Source of the DNA: Thiohalobacter sp.
Lineage (GTDB): Bacteria > Pseudomonadota > Gammaproteobacteria > DSM-19610
DNA: 11,757 bases
NCBI GenBank assembly: GCA_027010005.1
Contig: JALVCM010000214.1
Coordinates: 1-11,757, forward strand
Direction of reading: 5' to 3'
Part shown: piece after piece, positions 2,247 to 11,757 of the stretch
How positions within the stretch are numbered: the stretch's first letter is position 1
Layout: the number at the start of each line of letters is the position of its first letter
The notes under the pieces: generated by a model
Databases searched by the model: none
Told to the model about the DNA's origin: nothing
The model's input: only the letters and a program-made list of their open reading frames with translations
Position numbers and translations under genes: made by a program

Positions 2247-2906
2247 TCAGGATTGACCCGGAGAATGGATTTCGACAACCAGGGCCAGTGCCGACAACCA
2301 CACCCCCGCAAGTGCAAAACCGCCGATCACATCACTCGGCCAATGTACGGCAAGGTAGAGGCGGCTGAAACCAATCATGAACGCCAGTACGAGCGCAAGG
2401 AGAAGTATGCCCAGTTTTTTTTGCAACCCGGACACTTTTCTGGCAATGAGATATGCAAGGAAAACATAGAGGAACAGGCTCATCGATGCATGCCCGCTTG
2501 GAAAGGACGGGGAATTTTCCATGACCAGGCCGGCCACTTCAGAGGGACGGTGCCTGTCGAGGAGAAACTTCACGGCGATCACCACTGCAGTCAGGCTGAC
2601 AAAACCACTTGCAAAAACCAGGGACTCGAGTTTCCTTCCCAGTAATAAAAAACTGACGGTGGTAATACTGGCAATAACGGCAAGCAGAAAGGGATTGCCG
2701 AGATGTGTAATCCCGGAAAAAAGTTTGTCGCCCAGCGCAGTGTGTCGTGCCTGCAACCACTGAATGACCTGTATATCCAGCTGGACCATACGCTCCTGGA
2801 ACCAGACATTCTCCACGGTTTCAAGAAAAATCCAGCTGAATGCGATTCCCGAGAAGATAGTGGCAAGTACAGCCAGTACAGGAATTTTGTGTTTTAGTGT
2901 TTGCAT
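2247..2906 (-). CDS. PAP2-family membrane lipid phosphatase
   Basis: A 219-residue integral membrane protein with about six hydrophobic segments. The three motifs of the PAP2/acid phosphatase superfamily are complete: K113-x6-R120-P121 (KFLLDRHRP), P136-S-G-H139 (FPSGHAS), and S181-R-x5-H188-x3-D192 (SRLYLAVHWPSD). H188 is the predicted nucleophile and H139 the acid. Such enzymes remove phosphate from phosphatidate, phosphatidylglycerophosphate or undecaprenyl pyrophosphate; the substrate cannot be told from sequence. It lies about 40 bp downstream of dgkA on the same strand, so the two are probably one operon. The start ATG 2906 is the only good one before the first hydrophobic segment, though its ribosome site is weak. 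Confidence 0.88.
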   Translation of the reverse strand: MQTLKHKIPVLAVLATIFSGIAFSWIFLETVENVWFQERMVQLDIQVIQWLQARHTALGDKLFSGITHLGNPFLLAVIASITTVSFLLLGRKLESLVFASGFVSLTAVVIAVKFLLDRHRPSEVAGLVMENSPSFPSGHASMSLFLYVFLAYLIARKVSGLQKKLGILLLALVLAFMIGFSRLYLAVHWPSDVIGGFALAGVWLSALALVVEIHSPGQS

Positions 2907-2946
2907 CGTCAGGACTGTGGCCCGGCATGCGACCCGCCAGTCTCGG

Positions 2947-3303
2947 TCAACCGGAAAACAGGCTTGCCAGGAAAGAGATAAATACCAGTACTGCAGTCAG
3001 CCCCAGTACCAGAACTGCCCCGGCGGCAGCATCCTTGGCGAGTTTGATTTGCGGGTGCTGCGCGGGATGTAAATGGTCCAGTGTTTTCTCGAGGGCGGTA
3101 TTAAATAACTCTGCCGCGAGCACCGCACCCGTCACGAGAATAATGATCCCCCACCAGACAGGGTCCGGGCGCAATATGCCCAGGATAATACCCATTGCGA
3201 CAGTGACAATGAGTTGTGTCCGGAAACTGGCTTCACTCTTTAACGCAAACACGATGCCATTGAGGGCAAATCCCAGGCGGGAATGGATGGGTTTGTTTTT
3301 CAT
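2947..3303 (-). CDS. dgkA: Diacylglycerol kinase (DgkA type)
   Basis: A 118-residue inner-membrane kinase with an amphipathic N-terminus and three hydrophobic segments, close to the 122 residues of E. coli DgkA. Active-site residues are visible: E24 (KSEASFR), E65, N68 and E72 (AAELFNTALEK), and K90-D91 (LAKDAAAGA). They match E. coli E28, E69, N72, E76, K94 and D95. It phosphorylates diacylglycerol to phosphatidate with ATP, recycling the diacylglycerol left by membrane-derived glucan or LPS modification. Some relatives act on undecaprenol instead. ATG 3303 is preferred over an in-frame TTG at 3315, which would give RTYM in front. First gene of a probable operon with the PAP2 gene. Confidence 0.92.
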   Translation of the reverse strand: MKNKPIHSRLGFALNGIVFALKSEASFRTQLIVTVAMGIILGILRPDPVWWGIIILVTGAVLAAELFNTALEKTLDHLHPAQHPQIKLAKDAAAGAVLVLGLTAVLVFISFLASLFSG

Positions 3304-3371
3304 ATAAGTGCGCAACCTGCCTGTCCCGGATCACCTGCCAATTATCACCTTAACACCGGTACTTGGCCAGC

Positions 3372-3810: not shown

Positions 3811-4893
3811 TTAGTCATCTGTCAATACATTGTGGATCGTTTTTGCAACGCGGTGTAACGGTACCACGTCGTCCACGCAACCCAGTTTTACAGCCTCACC
3901 CGGCATCCCCCAGACGACACTGGTTTTCTCATCCTGGACTATGGTATGAGCACCGGAATTTTTCATTTCCTGCATACCTTTTGCCCCGTCGGCACCCATA
4001 CCGGTGAGAAGGACTGCCAGTGCATTGGGGCCAATGTTCTGTGCGACGGAGCGAAACATGACATCAACACTGGGGCGGTGGCGGTTCACCGCTGGTCCGT
4101 CACTCAGTTGACAGCGAAATCGGGCCCCGTCACGAACTACGAGCAGATGGTAGTCACCGGGTGCAATATAGACATGCCCTGGCACAATCTGCTCGCCGTC
4201 ACTGGCCTGTGTAACTATCATCTGTGAGCAACGGTTCATACGCTCTGAGAATGGCTTGCTGAAGGCTTCCGGGATATGCTGTGAAATAACGATAGCCGGA
4301 CTATCTGCCGGCATGACTTCGAGCACCTCACGGATGGCTTCGGTGCCACCGGTTGAGGCCCCCAGAGCAATGAGTCGGTCTGTGGTCCTGAAGTGTTTTG
4401 TCGTTCTCGCCGGCAGGACGGCATCGGCACTCTGTCGTTCACTCACGGTCGTCAGCATGCGCACATGTGCTTTGGACGCTATTTTAACTTTGGTAATGAG
4501 TTCCTCGGCGTAGTCGCCAAGAGCGTGTGCAATATCTACCGTGGGCTTGGCAATGAAATCAATGGCGCCCAGTTCCAGCGCATTCAGTGTGATCTCGCTG
4601 CCTTTCTGAGTAAGTGTAGAAACCATCACTACCGGCATGGGCCGCAATCTCATCAGATTACGCAGAAAGGTCACACCATCCATGCGTGGCATTTCTACAT
4701 CCAGTGTCAGCACGTCAGGTCTGAGCTGTTTTATCTTGTCACGCGCCATGAATGGATCCTGCGCAGTTCCAACCACCTCTATCCCGGGGTCCTGCTCCAG
4801 CATTTCTGTCAGCATACGCCGGACCAGGGCGGAATCATCCACCACCAGAACCCGGATTTTTTTCCCCTGTACAGTTTGAGTCGGTTGCAACAT
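3811..4893 (-). CDS. cheB: CheB: receptor methylesterase/glutamine deamidase, response regulator
   Basis: A 360-residue two-domain CheB. Receiver domain about residues 13-130: acidic pair D19-D20 ([10 protein letters not shown]), phospho-acceptor D65 ([13 protein letters not shown]), T93 (VMVST) and K117 (AKP). The catalytic domain, from about 170 to the end, has S180 (GASTGGTEA), H206 (SQHIPEAF) and D302 ([10 protein letters not shown]), which match the E. coli triad S164, H190 and D286. When phosphorylated by CheA it removes methyl groups from receptor glutamates and resets the kinase. It starts 12 bp after the cheD stop and is the last gene of the operon. The linker at about 131-169 is ordinary in length. 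In this setting it corresponds to CheB2 of the P. aeruginosa Che2 system. Confidence 0.97.
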
Positions 4894-4905: not shown

Positions 4906-5547
4906 CTAGAACAATTCGATATCGCCTTCGATATGCTCGTGACTGATACGATCCTGATAGGCACACTCCTGAGTGATAACCTTATTACTGCCCATCTTTT
5001 TAACCCGCAGTTTACCGGTGGCCGGAAAGTAGACCACGCGCCTGGGCAAGGTCCCACCCAGGTCTTCGCCGATTACTTCCAGACCTTCATTTCGCAGGTA
5101 TTCTTTCGCAAAACGGATATTCTTTTCGCCAATATTGGTACTTACGTTTTCCAGCACCCGTCCTCCACCTGTCAGTTTAATTTCCAGGTTTTCACGCCGC
5201 CCGCCCGCTTTGAGAATATCATTGATAAGCTGCTCCATAGCAAACGAACCATAGCGTGCTGCCTCAGTGGCCAGGTCACCGCCACTCCATGGATTACCAC
5301 TTGCCTCCGGCAACATAAAGTGGTTCATGCCGCCGATACGGAAGACACGGTCACGGATACAAGCAGAGACGCAGGAACCAAGAGAGGTAATAATCGCCTC
5401 GTCAGACTGGGTTACATAGAATTCGCCCGGCAATATCTTCGCGGCGAAGCAATGTTGAGTATTGTCCCAGTAACGGCGAATATGCTCGAAACCTCTCAAC
5501 ACAGGTGGCTGCGTATGTCCATCGGGTGCTTTGACCAGACCTCTCAT
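4906..5547 (-). CDS. cheD: CheD: receptor glutamine deamidase
   Basis: A 213-residue protein with the CheD core from about residue 38: PGEFYVTQSDEAIITSLGSC, then a GGMNHFMLPE block. C59 and H76 keep the 17-residue spacing of the catalytic Cys27 and His44 of Thermotoga CheD. Other typical stretches are RYGSFAMEQLINDI, KLTGGG and IGEKNIRFAKEYL. It deamidates chosen glutamines of chemoreceptors, and in some systems also binds CheC or CheY-P; no cheC is seen here. The N-terminal 35 residues extend beyond the minimal enzyme, as is usual in proteobacterial CheD next to CheB and CheR. Gaps are 11 bp to cheR and 12 bp to cheB, so it sits inside the operon. The ribosome site is weak, which suggests translational coupling to cheR. 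Confidence 0.95.
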   Translation of the reverse strand: MRGLVKAPDGHTQPPVLRGFEHIRRYWDNTQHCFAAKILPGEFYVTQSDEAIITSLGSCVSACIRDRVFRIGGMNHFMLPEASGNPWSGGDLATEAARYGSFAMEQLINDILKAGGRRENLEIKLTGGGRVLENVSTNIGEKNIRFAKEYLRNEGLEVIGEDLGGTLPRRVVYFPATGKLRVKKMGSNKVITQECAYQDRISHEHIEGDIELF

Positions 5548-5558
5548 ATCAACGCTGC

Positions 5559-6416
5559 CTAGCTGATTTTCCGATAAATAGTCTGGCCTACCAGCTCAAA
5601 ACGGTTGGAGAGGTTATGCATGTTTTCGGAATGACCAATAAACAGGTAACCACCGGTCACAAGTGCATCAGCATAGCGGTCAAATAATTTACGTTGTGTC
5701 GGTTTGTCGAAATAAATCACGACATTTCGGCAAAAGATCAGATCGAATTTACCCTTCATGGGCCATTCCTGCATCAGGTTAAGCTGCTTGAACGTAATCA
5801 GATCCTGCAGGGCTGTAGCGACTTGCACCTGGTCTCCGGACCCTCCTGCAACAGGATGGAACCACTTGCTGGCACGCGTTCTTGAAAGTCCCTCGATACG
5901 CTGAGTGTTGTATCGTCCGAGCCTGGCGGTTTCAACCACATTCGAGTCCAGATCTGTTGCCAGGATCTTGGTGTCCCAGTTTTTTAGTGAGGCCATCTCC
6001 TCGAGCAGTGTTATTGCAATCGAATAAGGTTCCTCGCCTGTCGAACATCCGGCGGACCAGAATCTGATTCTATGGTCACCAGCATGTCGTCGCATGGCTT
6101 CAGGTAGTACCGTCTTGGCCATATAGTCGAAATGATGAGGTTCACGGAAGAATGCCGTCAGGTTGGTCGTCAATGCATTAATAAACTGCACCAGCTCTGA
6201 CTTGCCCTCCGGTGACTCCAGATATTTCAGATAGGAAGAAAAGTCACCCATTCTGCAGGCCCGAAGACGGCGGGAAAGTCGTCCATATACCAGATCCCGC
6301 TTACTGTCATTGAGGGATATTCCGGCCTGTTCGTACAGCTTGTTACGGACAGACTGGAAATCCTGATCAGTAAAGTGGAATTCACGCTCGCGCTTTATTT
6401 CTGCTTTGGCCAACAT
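5559..6416 (-). CDS. cheR: CheR: chemoreceptor glutamate methyltransferase
   Basis: A 285-residue SAM-dependent methyltransferase. The N-terminal helical domain (about 12-90) contains TTNLTAFFREPHHF. The Rossmann domain has the SAM loop WSAGCSTGEEPYSIA (120-134), ILATDLD (151-157), IFCRNVVIYFDKPTQ (227-241) and LFIGHSENM (258-266). The beta-subdomain at about 186-214 (HPVAGGSGDQVQV...LITFKQLNL) appears to have the same length as in E. coli CheR, as recalled. In that enzyme it docks the receptor C-terminal pentapeptide. This fits the EWEEF tail of the receptor encoded just upstream. It adds methyl groups to receptor glutamates to restore kinase activity. The ATG at 6416 has AGGAA 10 bases upstream. 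It is separated from the receptor gene by 145 bp with inverted repeats. Confidence 0.97.
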   Translation of the reverse strand: MLAKAEIKREREFHFTDQDFQSVRNKLYEQAGISLNDSKRDLVYGRLSRRLRACRMGDFSSYLKYLESPEGKSELVQFINALTTNLTAFFREPHHFDYMAKTVLPEAMRRHAGDHRIRFWSAGCSTGEEPYSIAITLLEEMASLKNWDTKILATDLDSNVVETARLGRYNTQRIEGLSRTRASKWFHPVAGGSGDQVQVATALQDLITFKQLNLMQEWPMKGKFDLIFCRNVVIYFDKPTQRKLFDRYADALVTGGYLFIGHSENMHNLSNRFELVGQTIYRKIS

Positions 6417-6561: not shown

Positions 6562-9500
6562 TCAGAACTCTTCCCACTCGTCGTCCGTCCTGGGTGCAGC
6601 AGCACGCTGGCTGGCCTGCCTTGGTGCCGGCTCTCTGGACCGTGATGCAGGTGTTGCAGTAGCTGAAAGCGGCGCTGCGGCAACTGCCGGATCACCATCG
6701 ACACTAAAGAATTGCATCAAACTGGTCATACCCTGTGCCTGGTCATCCATAGATTTACTGGCAGCAGCAGCCTCTTCCACCAGTGCTGCATTCTGCTGGG
6801 TCACTTCGTCCAGCTGTGTTACAGCCTTGTTGACCTGTTCGATACCGGTGGACTGTTCCTCGCTGGCTGCTGCAATTTCGGCGATTATGTCGGAAACCTT
6901 TTTGACCGAAGTAACAATTTCATCAAGTGTTTTCCCGGATTCGTCCACCAGGCGGGTACCTTCGTCCACCTTGTCGACACTGTCTTTAATCAGACTCTTG
7001 ATTTCCTTTGCAGCTCCGGCGCTGCGCTGGGCCAGATTACGCACTTCGGCGGCAACCACCGCAAAACCCCGACCCTGTTCACCGGCGCGTGCAGCTTCCA
7101 CTGCAGCATTTAGCGCCAACAGGTTGGTCTGGAAAGCAATCTCATCAATAACACCGATAATATCGGCAATTTCCTTGCTTGAGTCATTGATGGCCGACAT
7201 GGCTGACACCGCAGTACTGACAACTTTTCCACCTTTCTCAGCCTGTTCGCGTGCTCCCGCTGCCAACTGATTGGCCTGACGCGCATTGTCCGCGTTCTGG
7301 CGAACGGTACTGGTCATTTGCTCCATGCTTGATGCGGTTTCTTCCAGGCTGGAAGCCATTTCTTCGGTGCGCTGGCTAAGGTCAGCATTACCACGAGACA
7401 GTTCTCCGGCTGAACTGCCAATGCTGTCTGCACTGGTACGGATTTCCGTAACGATACGGCTAAGATCACTGATCGTTGCATTAACCGCATCCTTGAGAGC
7501 GGCAAATTCACCCGTGTATTCGCCCTGCATTAACTCGGAAAGGTCGCCTTTCGACATCTTGTCCATGACCTGAGTAGTTTCCTTGAGCACTCTCTCGACT
7601 GTTTTCTGCAACAGCTTGTCAGCGGTGATATCTGTAGCATACTTCACCACCTTGTAAGGCTTATGGTTAAGATCCAGGATTGGATTATAGGAAGCCTGGA
7701 TCCAGATTTCTCTACCACCTTTCCCGATTCGCCTGTATTCTCCAGCGTCGAATTCACCCCGGTTGAGCTTTTCCCAGAATGCCCGGTATTCTACTGATGC
7801 AGCATAATCCGGTTCAGCGAACATGCTGTGATGCTTGCCCTTGATTTCATCCAGCGTGTAGCCCAACGTATTCAGGAAGTTTTCGTTGGCATTGATAATT
7901 GCCCCATCCATGTCGAACTCGATAACAGCCTGTGACTTGCTGATAGCATCAATTTGTCCGGAATAGTCGGCATTACGTAATTTTTGCTCGGTCACATCTG
8001 TGGCATATTTAACGACCTTGAAGGGTTTCCCGTCGGTACCGAGAATCGGATTATAGGAAGCCTGAATCCAGATTTCTTTACCACCTTTCCCGATTCGCTT
8101 GTATTCTCCAGCATCGAACTCACCCCGGTTAAGCTTATCCCAGAATGCCCGGTACTCTACTGATGCAGCAAAATCGGGTTCAACAAACATGCTGTGATGC
8201 TTGCCATTGATTTCATCCAGTGTGTAGCCCAACGTATTCAGGAAGTTTTCGTTGGCATTGATAATTGTCCCATCCATATTGAACTCGATAACAGCCTGCG
8301 ACTTGCTGATAGCCTCGATCTGACCACCGAAATCCAGTGCATTACGCCGGTCCTCGGTAACATCCGACCATTCCAGACTGTTACCTACGTAGTTCTGGTC
8401 AGAATCGAATATTGCAGTGACGTTCAGTCTGATATCCAGCGGACCAAGCTTGATGTCAGTCTGAAATGGCAGGTTGGCGGGATTGGCAAGCAGCTGACGC
8501 TGATGTGCAGGGTTCTTGTGAAACATATCAATACAGACACCGATCATGTTGCTTGCATCAAAACCGGGATAGATATCCTTCAGTATCGCTTCGTGTTTAG
8601 TCAGAAGATCGACTGTCGACTGGTTAACATAGGTGATGACCAGCTCGCGGTCTACCATCATAATGGCTGTCATGGCACCATTGACAGCACCTTCCAGGCG
8701 GGCAACATTGTCTTCCTGAACGCGTTGCGCTGTGACATCGGCCCATTCCAGACTGTTTCCAATATAATTCCCGGCATCGTCGACAATGGCCGTCACGTTC
8801 AGTGAGAACTTCAGTGGCCCGACAGAAATATCTGTCTGATAAGGCAAGTTGGAAGGATCCGAGAGTAACTGTCGCTGGTGCTGGGGGTTCTTGTGAAACA
8901 TATCAATGCAGGAACCGACCAGCGTATCAACACTAAAGCCCGGAAAGGTCTCACGCATTACAGCCTGGTGCTCGGTTAACAGATTGATCGTTGCTGTATT
9001 AGCGAAGTTGATCACCAGATCACGGTCCACCATCATAATAGCAGACATCGTTCCATCGATAGCTCCGCGCAGCTTGGTCAGTTCCTCCGCCACACTATCG
9101 TCAATATCCTGTTGTACAATTTTCTCGCTTGTAGCCATGTCGGTCTCCATATTTCCTGCCTTGATCATTACCTCAGCGACCTGATTCAGCGCCTCGGTCC
9201 AGGCCTGCTTCACATCGTCTGTCCATGCTTTTCCTGCGAACTCTGCCATCACATCGAGCAGGGTTCCCGAAACTGCACCATAGTGTTCAGGTTGTGCACC
9301 GTAATCCCGGTGTTTACGTCCCAGCTCAGTGAGCGCGTTCACCAGCTTGTCTGGTTTGCGTAAACTATTGACAACGAGCTTCAGAGCTGCGAGCAGCTTC
9401 TTTTTCTGGTCGTCCATATTGGTATTTTTAAACATCGGAACTACTTCCGGGTAACGCGCAAACAGCTCTTCGTAAAAACGCGCGACCAGTTCCTCGGCTT

Positions 9501-9720
9501 GCCCTGCCAGTAGCGAAAAGGAGTCTTCCAGCAAGGTGATGCGTGTATCTTCTGTCATCTGCCCGGGACGTTTTCCTGCGTCTGACTTTCTGCGCACACT
9601 CTTTTTCCGCTGGTTCGCAGTGCCGCTTTGATTTGACCCGTTCGGGCCCGGTGAGGTTTTTGTGTCGCCAGCCAACTCCAGTGAGGTCGTCTTCGGCTTG
9701 TTACGTGTTCGGGTCGTCAT
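6562..9720 (-). CDS. Soluble globin-PAS4-HAMP methyl-accepting chemoreceptor (Aer2/McpB position)
   Basis: A 1052-residue chemoreceptor with no membrane segment. Domains: a basic disordered leader (1-54). Globin (about 55-192) with B10 Tyr83, CD1 Phe97, E7 Gln105, proximal His137 and Tyr147. PAS-A (217-330) and PAS-B (342-455), Aer2-like, each with FHKNP.H (H276, H401) and EW.DVT (W326, W451). PAS-C (467-577) and PAS-D (589-699), BdlA-like and nearly identical. A HAMP-like segment (about 705-757). A signalling coiled coil (760-1003) with tip [22 protein letters not shown] Pro/Ala linker and the terminal EWEEF, a CheR-docking pentapeptide. The flanks [21 protein letters not shown] and [16 protein letters not shown] resemble Tsr/Tar, suggesting the 36-heptad class. 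It should control CheA in response to a gas, redox or energy cue through haem. The start could instead be M55 (9558), which would drop only the leader; ATG 9720 has GGGA 6 bases upstream. Aer2 orthology is inferred from gene order. Confidence 0.95.
6565..6579 (-). other. C-terminal CheR/CheB docking pentapeptide EWEEF
   Basis: The receptor ends DDEWEEF after about 40 Pro/Ala/Arg-rich residues. E. coli Tar and Tsr end NWETF and P. aeruginosa Aer2/McpB ends GWEEF; both tether CheR. Trp and the final Phe, the key contacts, are kept. Confidence 0.85.
7624..7956 (-). repeat. Tandem PAS repeat, copy 2 (PAS-D)
   Basis: Encodes residues 589-699 of the receptor. It is a direct repeat of 7990-8322 at an exact offset of 366 bp (122 codons). 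The protein copies differ at about 15 of 111 positions. Over the roughly 120 bases starting at 7682 and 8048 I count about eight mismatches, mostly at third positions. The clearest divergence is a four-residue loop (GTDG versus DLNH). Confidence 0.9.
7990..8322 (-). repeat. Tandem PAS repeat, copy 1 (PAS-C)
   Basis: Encodes residues 467-577 of the receptor; partner of 7624-7956. The two are joined by an 11-residue linker ([11 protein letters not shown]) within the 122-codon unit. Confidence 0.9.
8356..9072 (-). repeat. Older tandem duplication of Aer2-type PAS domains (PAS-A, PAS-B)
   Basis: PAS-A (8731-9072) and PAS-B (8356-8697) are offset by 125 codons. They share [25 protein letters not shown](Y/F)QTDI, LNVTAI and GNSLEW, but their DNA is clearly more diverged than that of the PAS-C/PAS-D pair. 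Both keep the haem-PAS signature residues. Confidence 0.8.
9145..9558 (-). other. Flavohaemoglobin-type globin domain of the receptor
   Basis: Residues 55-192. [17 protein letters not shown] aligns with the B-helix and CD region of E. coli Hmp (HFYDRMF...NPELKEIF), which puts Tyr83 at B10 and Phe97 at CD1. [11 protein letters not shown] places Gln105 at E7. [14 protein letters not shown] aligns with AQKHTSFQIKPEQY of Hmp, which puts His137 at the proximal haem position and Tyr147 at the Tyr95 position. The CD loop is about two residues shorter than in Hmp. HemAT-type sensor globins lack this QPEHY-like F-G pattern, so the domain looks closer to the flavohaemoglobin lineage. No FAD or NAD reductase domain follows. 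Confidence 0.85.
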
Positions 9721-9910: not shown

Positions 9911-10435
9911 CTATTGGGTAATACTGCTCATGGTAGCCAGCTCGCCTGAATTAAGCAGACGATCAATATCAAGCAGGATTACCATCTTCTCCTGAACCGT
10001 AGCAATTGAGTGCACCGACTCTGTTACGGCCTCATTTCCGTTACTCTGTATTTGTCGAAGATCTTCTTCCTGGATGTTGTACACATCGGAAACTGCATCA
10101 ACAACAATGCCCATAATGCACTCACTATCTTCACCCTGGACCCGCACCACTATCACAACTGTTGTAGGGCCGTACTCCAGTTTTTCCATTCCAAAACGCT
10201 TGCGCAGATCAACAATAGGAACAATAGCGCCACGTAGATTGATAACACCCTGCAGATAATCCGGAGTATTTGGGATTGGTGTTGCCTTGTCCCAACCCTT
10301 AATCTCCTGAACGCGCAGGATATCAACCCCGTATTCTTCGCCAGACAATATAAAGGTTAGATACTGATTATCATCAGTCATTTCAATCTGGGCTGTGACC
10401 GCTGTAACTTCCTGTTCTGCCTGTGCTGATTTCAT
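9911..10435 (-). CDS. cheW: CheW: receptor-kinase coupling protein
   Basis: A 174-residue CheW-like SH3-type beta-barrel protein. QYLTFILSGEEYGVDILRVQEI, then IPNTPDYLQGVINLRGAIVPIVDLRKRFG, are the standard CheW motifs. E44 and R68 correspond to the E38 and R62 of E. coli CheW that contact CheA and receptor. The rest has MGIVVDAVSDV and KMVILLDIDRLL, also typical. It links the receptor tip to the CheA P5 domain in the array. The start ATG 10435 has GAGGT 8 bases upstream and lies 10 bp after the cheA stop; an in-frame upstream GTG at 10492 inside cheA is not needed. The N-terminal 22 residues are an acidic extension. Confidence 0.95.
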   Translation of the reverse strand: MKSAQAEQEVTAVTAQIEMTDDNQYLTFILSGEEYGVDILRVQEIKGWDKATPIPNTPDYLQGVINLRGAIVPIVDLRKRFGMEKLEYGPTTVVIVVRVQGEDSECIMGIVVDAVSDVYNIQEEDLRQIQSNGNEAVTESVHSIATVQEKMVILLDIDRLLNSGELATMSSITQ

Positions 10436-10445
10436 ACCATTTACC

Positions 10446-11757
10446 TCATGCAGCTTGTTCGTCTTTGCGTGGTGGCTGCGAAGCCGGACCACGACTACTC
10501 ATGATAATCAAACCACCAACATCCAGAATCAGGGCTACGGTTCCATCACCAAGTATGGTTGCACCGGATAGTCCTTCTACTCGCTGATAGTTGGTTTCCA
10601 GGCTTTTGATAACAACCTGTTGCTGTCCCAGTAATTCATCGACAAGCAGCCCGACCTTGTGTCCATCATGCTCGACGATTACCAGTAGCGCATCATGCAG
10701 GGATGTATTATTAGGCTGGAGGCCGAAGATATCGTACAGGCGCACAATAGGGACGTAGTCTTCGCGCAACTTGTACATTTCTTCGCAACTGGCGATCGTA
10801 CTCACCTTTGCCACATCAATCTGCAACGACTCAACAATGGAAACTAGCGGCATAATGAAAGTTTCTTCGCCAACACTCAGCAGCTGACCATCAAGTATGG
10901 AAAGTGTCAGAGGCAAACGAATGGTGAATATTGAACCTTTGTCTTCCTCAGAATGCACTGCGATGCTGCCACCAAGGTCCTTGATGTTTCGACGTACAAC
11001 ATCCATACCGACGCCCCGACCCGAAACATCGCTGACAGTATCTGCCGTCGAGAATCCCGGCTCGAATATCAGGTCCATTATTCTTTCCTGAGACAGTGTT
11101 TCATCGGCAGGGACCAGACCACGTTCCTTCGCCCTGGAGATAATCTTGTCGGCCGGGAGGCCGCCGCCATCATCGGAAATTTCGATGACAATATAGCCGC
11201 CTTGATGATAGGCATTCAGGTGTACGATGCCTGTTTCGGGTTTGCCCTTGGCTGCACGTATCTCCGGCATTTCAATACCGTGATCGAGTGAGTTTCGCAC
11301 CAGATGGACCAGTGGATCCCCAATCTTTTCCATGACCGTTTTATCCAGTTCGGTACTTTCCCCGGAAATCTTCAATTCTATTTTCTTGCCCAGCTTTGCT
11401 GATAAATCATGCACAAGGCGCGGGAATCGGTTAAACGAAAAGCTGATGGGCAGCATACGAATTCGCATGACACTTTCCTGAAGCTCCCGGGTGTTGCGTT
11501 CCAGTTGCCCCAGCCCATCACGGAGCTTCTCGACCATGCCGGAGTCAAACTCAGTCACCTCGGTACCGACCTGACTCAGCATTGACTGCGTGATCACCAG
11601 CTCACCTACCATGTTGATAAGTTCGTCGATTTTATTGATGCCGACCCGAATGGAACTATCCGCACTTGCAGCTGACCGACGTTCAACCTTGCGTCGATCT
11701 TCCTTACGACGATCGCCCTCCGGTGGGGCCTCCTCCACTGCAGCACCTGATTCACTC
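10446..11757 (-). CDS. cheA: CheA: chemotaxis histidine kinase, C-terminal part
   Basis: The last 436 codons of CheA; the frame stays open to the right edge, so the 5' part (P1 phosphotransfer and P2 domains) is outside. A charged linker (EGDRRKEDRRKVERR) comes first. Next is the P3 dimerisation helix pair (INKIDELINMVGELVITQSML). The P4 kinase domain follows, with N box HLVRNSLDHGIE, G1 ISDDGGGL, F box IFEPGFSTA and G2 GRGVGMDVV. Last is the P5 CheW-like domain, with LLVDELLGQQQVVIKSL and GATILGDGTVALILDV. It autophosphorylates and passes phosphate to CheY and CheB. All catalytic boxes are intact. The tail SSRGPASQPPRKDEQAA is basic and probably disordered. cheY probably lies further right, outside the window, as in Che2. 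Confidence 0.97.
   Translation of the reverse strand, partial: SESGAAVEEAPPEGDRRKEDRRKVERRSAASADSSIRVGINKIDELINMVGELVITQSMLSQVGTEVTEFDSGMVEKLRDGLGQLERNTRELQESVMRIRMLPISFSFNRFPRLVHDLSAKLGKKIELKISGESTELDKTVMEKIGDPLVHLVRNSLDHGIEMPEIRAAKGKPETGIVHLNAYHQGGYIVIEISDDGGGLPADKIISRAKERGLVPADETLSQERIMDLIFEPGFSTADTVSDVSGRGVGMDVVRRNIKDLGGSIAVHSEEDKGSIFTIRLPLTLSILDGQLLSVGEETFIMPLVSIVESLQIDVAKVSTIASCEEMYKLREDYVPIVRLYDIFGLQPNNTSLHDALLVIVEHDGHKVGLLVDELLGQQQVVIKSLETNYQRVEGLSGATILGDGTVALILDVGGLIIMSSRGPASQPPRKDEQAA

Follow-up and report, generated by a model that had tools for sequence, protein, structure and literature searches.

What does a globin add to a chemoreceptor that may be complete without it? The question is raised by an open reading frame (ORF) at positions 6562 to 9720, minus strand, in a stretch of 11,757 nucleotides from Thiohalobacter sp. 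(contig JALVCM010000214.1), the whole of which was analysed and is called the window here. The ORF list and Pfam give a chemoreceptor of 1052 amino acids with a globin, four PAS domains, a HAMP domain and a methyl-accepting chemotaxis protein (MCP) hairpin. Globin sensors are usually pictured as an N-terminal globin that pushes a single output domain. Our analysis points to a different arrangement, in which the globin would be an accessory haem module, loosely tethered and carried by only part of an O2-sensing array, with two products made from one gene. From sequence, we give this reading a probability of about 0.45.

Results

An original prediction, made from the DNA letters alone, had described a soluble receptor with an N-terminal globin, four PAS domains and an MCP hairpin. 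The ORF list and Pfam bear out these parts. Pfam PAS families cover four consecutive blocks, from about residue 214 to 710 of the 1052-residue protein, and are followed by HAMP_2 (residues 712-751; 7468 to 7587) and by the MCPsignal hairpin (residues 818-974; 6799 to 7269), all on the minus strand like the other receptor parts and the che genes given below. Solubility was likewise supported, as no transmembrane segment is indicated and the highest 19-residue Kyte-Doolittle mean is 1.26. The predicted domain order was correct for the parts listed and incomplete as a whole: HAMP was missed, and neither the Aer2 type of the receptor nor the che cluster around it was recognised.

PAS1 (8707 to 9081) and PAS2 (8332 to 8706) both carry the motifs FHKNPxHQ and LEWxDVT, in PAS1 as FHKNPQHQ at residue 275 and LEWADVT at 324, and in PAS2 as FHKNPAHQ at 400 and LEWSDVT at 449. 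At an E value of 0.01 or less, the pair matches just three solved chains, namely 6ceq, from a methyl-accepting chemotaxis protein, together with 3vol and 4hi4, both PAS domains of P. aeruginosa Aer2 (for PAS2, E values of 2.5e-26, 3e-22 and 7e-21, respectively). Both therefore show the Aer2 haem type, with a histidine in FHKNP and a later tryptophan; counting along 4hi4 from its construct start, we take these to correspond to H234 and W283. The available text of PMC13401364 gives H234 as the haem-PAS histidine of P. aeruginosa Aer2. PAS3 (7957 to 8331) and PAS4 (7591 to 7956) are of another type, assigned by Pfam and structure matches, and are closest among solved structures to the FAD/redox PAS of 3ewk and to E. 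coli Aer. The C-terminal pentapeptide EWEEF (6565 to 6579) fits x-[HFYW]-x(2)-[HFYW], the pattern defined for Aer2-like receptors by Ortega et al. in the available text of PMC7184735, and such a pentapeptide is found in 96 of the 97 MCP-motif proteins of the globin-region search described below. The NCBIfam equivalog for Vibrio Aer2 (NF041847) scores 780 bits, below its cut-off of 1200.

The genes around the receptor, identified by Pfam, form an F7-like cheA-cheW-aer2-cheR-cheD-cheB cluster: CheA, of which the contig end leaves the C-terminal part (dimerisation, ATPase, CheW-like; 10446 to 11756), CheW (9911 to 10492), CheR (5559 to 6416), CheD (4906 to 5547) and CheB (3811 to 4893). The order CheY-CheA-CheW-receptor-CheR-CheD-CheB recurs in loci fetched for comparison, such as L035, L038, L041, L047, L050 and L100, and is that of the che2 cluster of P. 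aeruginosa. Because of the haem-PAS matches, the EWEEF tail and this recurring gene order, the protein is, by its sequence marks, an Aer2-type receptor with an added N-terminal globin.

The globin (residues 61-188; 9157 to 9540; family hidden Markov model, Pfam and structure matches) is of the flavohaemoglobin/single-domain (F) lineage, as had been predicted. Pfam Globin (PF00042) matches residues 81-185 with 58.6 bits (E 1.1e-15, cut-off 22), whereas Protoglobin (PF11563) stays at 24.2 bits, just below its cut-off of 25. The profile search that the original prediction had proposed thus did not return the sensor-globin family as best match, and a HemAT-type sensor globin of the S lineage is rejected. 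Some relatives exceed the Protoglobin cut-off (P0031 with 29.3 bits, P0003 with 30.1), PF00042 always scoring far higher there. The best solved match is HGbRL (3wfw), whose E value of 6e-19 excludes a chance match. HGb, Vgb and FHP are the other best solved relatives, and HemAT is not among the best 60 of 295 solved-structure matches. The receptor also matches the N-terminal globin part of Hmp in NCBIfam. It is not a flavohaemoglobin, as Pfam finds no FAD/NAD reductase domain.

The pocket residues named by the original prediction are present, namely Tyr83 (B10), Gln105 (E7), His137 (F8) and the segment QPEHY at 143-147, together with Phe97 (CD1), Lys108 (E10), Tyr147, Trp166 and Trp174; the position names B10, CD1, E7 and F8 were transferred by alignment to solved relatives. 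Profiles, structures and the B10, E7 and F8 residues agree on the F lineage. Across the MCP, CheA, CheW and STAS groups, Tyr83 and Gln105 are kept in 120 of 120 rows and His137 in 119, and a set of 133 domains likewise keeps the pocket residues in MCP, CheA and CheW contexts. Lys108 is conserved in 70 of 72 receptor globins, in 9 of 9 CheA globins and in 34 of 34 C-terminal CheW globins; the equivalent residue is Lys in 16 of 20 single-domain globins and Ala in five of six flavohaemoglobins. The haem pocket thus appears complete, and binding of haem and O2 is predicted.

Residues 189-213 (9082 to 9156) connect the globin to PAS1, and the length of this connection drifts in the family. Spacings were taken from the 113 receptors, out of 135, that remained after 90% clustering. 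Of these, 102 could be anchored and 11 were unplaced; 24 of the anchored receptors have no haem-type PAS beside the globin and were excluded, leaving 78. The distance from Trp174 of the globin to FHKNP of the adjacent haem-PAS ranges from 92 to 118 residues (standard deviation 4.65, interquartile range 100-105.75), and its counts modulo 7 are 7, 8, 11, 14, 14, 8 and 16. In contrast, the distance from one FHKNP to the next is 125 residues in 88 of 119 cases and 126 in 22 (standard deviation 3.05, due to seven cases at 138), and between the last FHKNP and the tip of the hairpin it is 260 in 80 of 102. Since PAS-PAS and PAS-hairpin spacings are near fixed and the globin-PAS spacing drifts, the PAS-HAMP-hairpin column appears to keep its register and the globin does not, which suggests a tether rather than a rigid relay.

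The rival to be set against the tether is a serial sensor, in which ligation of the globin shifts its H helix and so turns PAS1 and the column behind it, in the manner of HemAT. Such a sensor is suggested by the N-terminal place of the globin ahead of the relay, by the helical look (by eye) of some linkers and by the conservation of Lys108, a residue that HGbRL shares and, as Lys E10, employs in its closed form according to the available text of PMC4476040. We consider it doubtful, given the lack of a clear 7-residue phase in a spacing that drifts beside near-fixed ones, the same globin within the linker of CheA, at the tails of CheW and inside a loop of CheW, and the globin-free product predicted next.

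Within the tether lies Met195 (ATG GCT ACA AGC; start codon at 9136 to 9138), with a Shine-Dalgarno-like GGAG (9145 to 9148) 6 nt before its codon; a further candidate is Met191, which lies four codons upstream. The anti-Shine-Dalgarno energies are -6.4 kcal/mol for Met195 and -7.6 for Met191, and none of the other internal Met codons listed for the gene has a site as strong; support comes from the family, the site being not significant in the window gene alone. The tether Met is invariant in a 44-row alignment, is followed by Ala in 62 receptors and is found within 30 residues in 112 of 113, where we estimate the chance of some Met in that stretch at about one in two. Upstream of this Met the energy averages -6.42 kcal/mol in 40 genes, vs -2.25 at 1047 other Met codons; the mean at 34 listed ATG starts is -5.09. 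Five duplicate loci were removed from this set, and in the 35 genes left the observed mean of -6.81 compares with -5.05 after synonymous shuffling (26 of 35 lower, p 1e-4). Control Met codons with an upstream Glu are, at -2.94, weaker than their own shuffles (-3.36). A second set of 13 genes, 11 of them new (L075 and L079 seem to repeat L052 and L047), gave -8.1 vs -5.15 (12 of 13 lower, p 4e-4). By shuffling and control codons, chance or composition is insufficient as the source of the site in the family. Because the Shine-Dalgarno site is stronger than the amino acids force, the conserved Met behind it is predicted to be an internal start that yields a globin-free receptor.

It might be argued that this start is never used, and that the Met and its site were left over from a gene fusion or come about as a side effect of encoding an acidic peptide. 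Glu-Glu codons do resemble GAGGAG, the synonymous shuffles reach their mean of -5.05 by themselves, and the motif could be a functional peptide. We hold this to be rather unlikely, since the signal exceeds the shuffles in both sets and the Glu-upstream controls fall below theirs. Moreover, in locus L110 (G137:C6) the globin contains two in-frame stops, the frame behind it is open through PAS, HAMP and hairpin, and GGAG precedes a linker ATG downstream of the broken globin. Nine globin-free relatives were also fetched, of which seven were readable; because four of these (L132, L134, L137, L138) carry such a site behind an N-terminal extension, the internal start may not depend on the globin. 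As a separate observation, locus L062 has frame changes in its globin part and an open receptor frame behind; many source sequences are metagenome contigs, and single broken frames such as this one may be assembly errors.

The same globin subfamily occurs in other chemotaxis proteins. A search with the globin region, in which 600 candidates were scored, returned 112 proteins: 97 whole-globin receptors including that of the window, nine CheA, three CheW with three globins each (P0003-P0005), two fragments with at least three globins and one globin remnant. Three more CheA globins were found in fetched loci. In CheA the globin occupies a low-complexity linker between a P2-like region and P3. A CheW-globin query, which scored only the 8000 sequences sharing most words, yielded at least 48 further CheW-globin proteins in a list of 120; a single C-terminal globin is present in 39 of them, two in six, and a globin inside the CheW domain in three. 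These in-fold globins sit between two CheW halves, and Pfam confirms the split in L093 and L095. Two proteins combine a globin with STAS by Pfam (L094, L096). Wherever a fetched locus has a globin in CheA, inside the CheW fold or with STAS (seven loci: L036, L055, L058, L093-L096), its receptor bears one as well. Fusion at such unrelated positions would suit a module that needs no more than presence in the array.

In a tree of 108 globins (of 163 rows, with MCP and CheW rows thinned at random and with 15 single-domain database rows and four other single-domain rows, three of them long-branched, left out), 84 chemotaxis globins fall on one side of a branch with a moderate SH-aLRT support of 87, below the mark of 95. 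This branch adjoins a cyanobacterial double globin, and context labels on the tree need 14 changes vs 53.8 in shuffles. One locus of the cyanobacterium Elainella saxicola (L060:9893-11902) encodes two sister-lineage globins followed by pentapeptide repeats. The window's CheW carries no globin, and a globin in its CheA was rejected from the same-genus CheA of L035, which has none, the window's own being cut by the contig end. The host genome (82.4% complete) gives one PF00042 match.

Any attachment point in the array would also suffice if the globins served gas chemistry, that is, if they bound or removed NO, or stored O2, for the haem-PAS sensors or the cell. The F lineage, common to Vgb and flavohaemoglobin, fits such a role, and so do multiple copies, such as the three receptor globins that L055 has beside one in CheA, or the at least four in tandem in P0002. 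This explanation, part of which the original prediction had raised as local scavenging of NO, is unlikely and has lost ground: there is no FAD/NAD domain, and a Glu of the H helix, present in five of six flavohaemoglobins sampled, is kept in only one of the 72 receptor globins and in none of the nine from CheA. Furthermore, diffusion should erase gas gradients over tens of nm, as gases would equilibrate in less than 1 microsecond over about 35 nm. A purely structural spacer or dimerisation unit, to which haem is irrelevant, would suit the many positions and several copies and is nevertheless very improbable, the pocket residues being near invariant in every context, unlike in RsbR-type globins, which have lost haem (PMC4476040, available text).

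Close relatives are in two same-genus genomes, one 76% identical over the whole protein (G005) and one in pieces of 47-77% identity (G011). The original prediction knew of no described receptor with this domain order. This part was not upheld: the available text of a 2018 paper (PMC6194562) reports seven PAS+Bac_globin+MCPsignal proteins, Cc_4972 of Corallococcus coralloides and six more, and the globin-region search gave the 97 globin-MCP proteins among 112 matches noted above. Receptors with globin, PAS and MCP domains are thus already published and common in databases. That text does not mention CheA or CheW globins, a variable tether or an internal start, and the word globin is absent from the main text of PMC7184735 as available. 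We found no description of globins in CheA or CheW in the open-licence literature, subscription papers being outside the search. What is new here are the globins in CheA, CheW and STAS proteins, the drifting tether and the predicted internal start. A Myxococcales record (L061:9956-12559) encodes a globin-PAS-PAS-MCP receptor with its che cluster in a different order.

Statements on whole genomes rest on samples, and the set of 18 loci is likewise a sample whose A1 patterns were drawn from one stretch. In an even sample of the phylum (398 genomes), only the host genome and one 147-residue single-domain frame pass 1e-30, so the family is patchy and a broad spread across the phylum is rejected. 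In an even class sample of 369 genomes, 45 have a best globin E value <=1e-36 (counted from the table). Tandem haem-PAS pass 1e-30 in 52 of these genomes, of which 43 also have a globin match <=1e-36, a share biased upward since a globin receptor supplied the PAS query, with one of the 43 (G137) carrying the globin stops. A mobile or viral origin was rejected: viral contigs gave no match and plasmids nine records, all below 60% identity, the annotated ones labelled globin family proteins.

The N-terminal extension of the window's receptor (residues 1-60; 9541 to 9720) is polar and K/R-rich and, by eye, lacks a peptide seen elsewhere. This N-terminal peptide, GxDPLAW(M/L), in many cases with a K/R-rich stretch after it, is carried by the receptor in 8 of the 15 loci that have a ParA-like ATPase gene nearby (L038, L047, L055, L097, L098, L106, L107, L112) and in 0 of the 19 that do not (Fisher p 3.5e-4). 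Six of the remaining seven ParA loci have it on another ORF (L048, L049, L052, L094, L096, L110), L099 being without it, and near variants occur without ParA in L059, L093 and L095. The peptide may be a partner of ParA that places the array. Downstream of cheB, the ORFs at 2247-3315 and 324-1245 encode what we take, by eye, to resemble PAP2-type phosphatase, diacylglycerol-kinase-like, EF-hand and PEBP-like proteins.

Discussion

We propose that the ribosome makes two receptors from this gene: the full-length form, which includes the globin, and a shorter form that begins shortly before PAS1. The PAS-HAMP-hairpin column would be the O2 signal relay and a complete O2 receptor by itself. On part of the subunits, the globin would form an accessory haem module that binds O2 and perhaps NO or CO. 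It would act without a rigid lever, most likely through ligand-dependent association between globins of array neighbours, which would tune the packing or sensitivity of the array. According to the available text of PMC4476040, HGbRL forms a site-swapped dimer, its Lys E10 can bind haem and it undergoes large motions on ligand binding. Because of this dimer and these motions, and of the kept Lys108, we prefer ligand-dependent association to a rigid switch, and consider NO removal less likely than either.

Several observations weigh against a tethered module with two products. A bent or re-registered helix is compatible with a drifting linker, and HGbRL has itself been proposed as a mechanical signal relay (PMC4476040, available text). 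In the window gene, 39% of synonymous shuffles are as strong as Met195; taken singly, no more than 4 of 35 genes attain p<0.1, and 15 of 40 lie above -6 kcal/mol, 13 of them above about -5.5 (by eye). In addition, several sampled clusters keep the globin on the receptor only.

A wider proposal, which we advance tentatively, is that this globin subfamily has spread through one cytoplasmic array as a tethered, gas-gated association module, the conserved internal start setting the share of globin-bearing subunits. The places reached would be the receptor, with one to at least three copies, the linker of the kinase, the tail and the fold of CheW, and the STAS protein. The presence of one subfamily at unrelated points of the array, seemingly loosely tied, would represent another mode of use for a gas-binding domain. 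If true, the dual start would allow the proportion of globin-bearing and globin-free receptors to be set by a single gene. The F7 array is regarded as the ancestor of the E. coli motility array, and its output is unclear in most hosts (PMC7184735, available text). The haem load bears on what an F7 array measures.

The nearest counterpart is Aer2 of the F7 system in P. aeruginosa, V. cholerae and V. vulnificus, which, in the available texts of PMC7184735 and PMC13401364, is likewise soluble, with PAS of the haem type, HAMP, hairpin and a CheR-tether pentapeptide, and is encoded with CheA, CheW, CheR, CheD and CheB. Unlike Aer2 as described there, the present receptor has an F-lineage globin and two extra PAS domains of another type, and Pfam finds one HAMP in it, whereas the four F7 model receptors have two separating PAS from hairpin. 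The Cc_4972 group likewise consists of soluble receptors that combine a globin with PAS and MCPsignal, and it shares Nitrospira hosts with our globin-region matches, although its globin is reported as Bac_globin (PF01152) and not PF00042 (PMC6194562, available text). HGbRL of Methylacidiphilum infernorum has the same Tyr B10, Gln E7 and Lys E10 and is fused to a signalling domain, which is Roadblock/LC7 and not chemotaxis (PMC4476040, available text). Hmp and Vitreoscilla Vgb share the globin lineage and pocket, yet the receptor differs from Hmp in lacking the reductase domain and in the replaced H-helix Glu. HemAT and other globin-coupled sensors also place a haem globin ahead of an MCP hairpin; theirs is of the S lineage (Protoglobin) and comes without a haem-PAS column, whereas that of the window is of the F lineage. 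Finally, the two in-frame products of one chemotaxis gene that E. coli makes by internal initiation, CheA-long and CheA-short, resemble the pair proposed here, with a kinase in that case and a receptor, by prediction, in ours.

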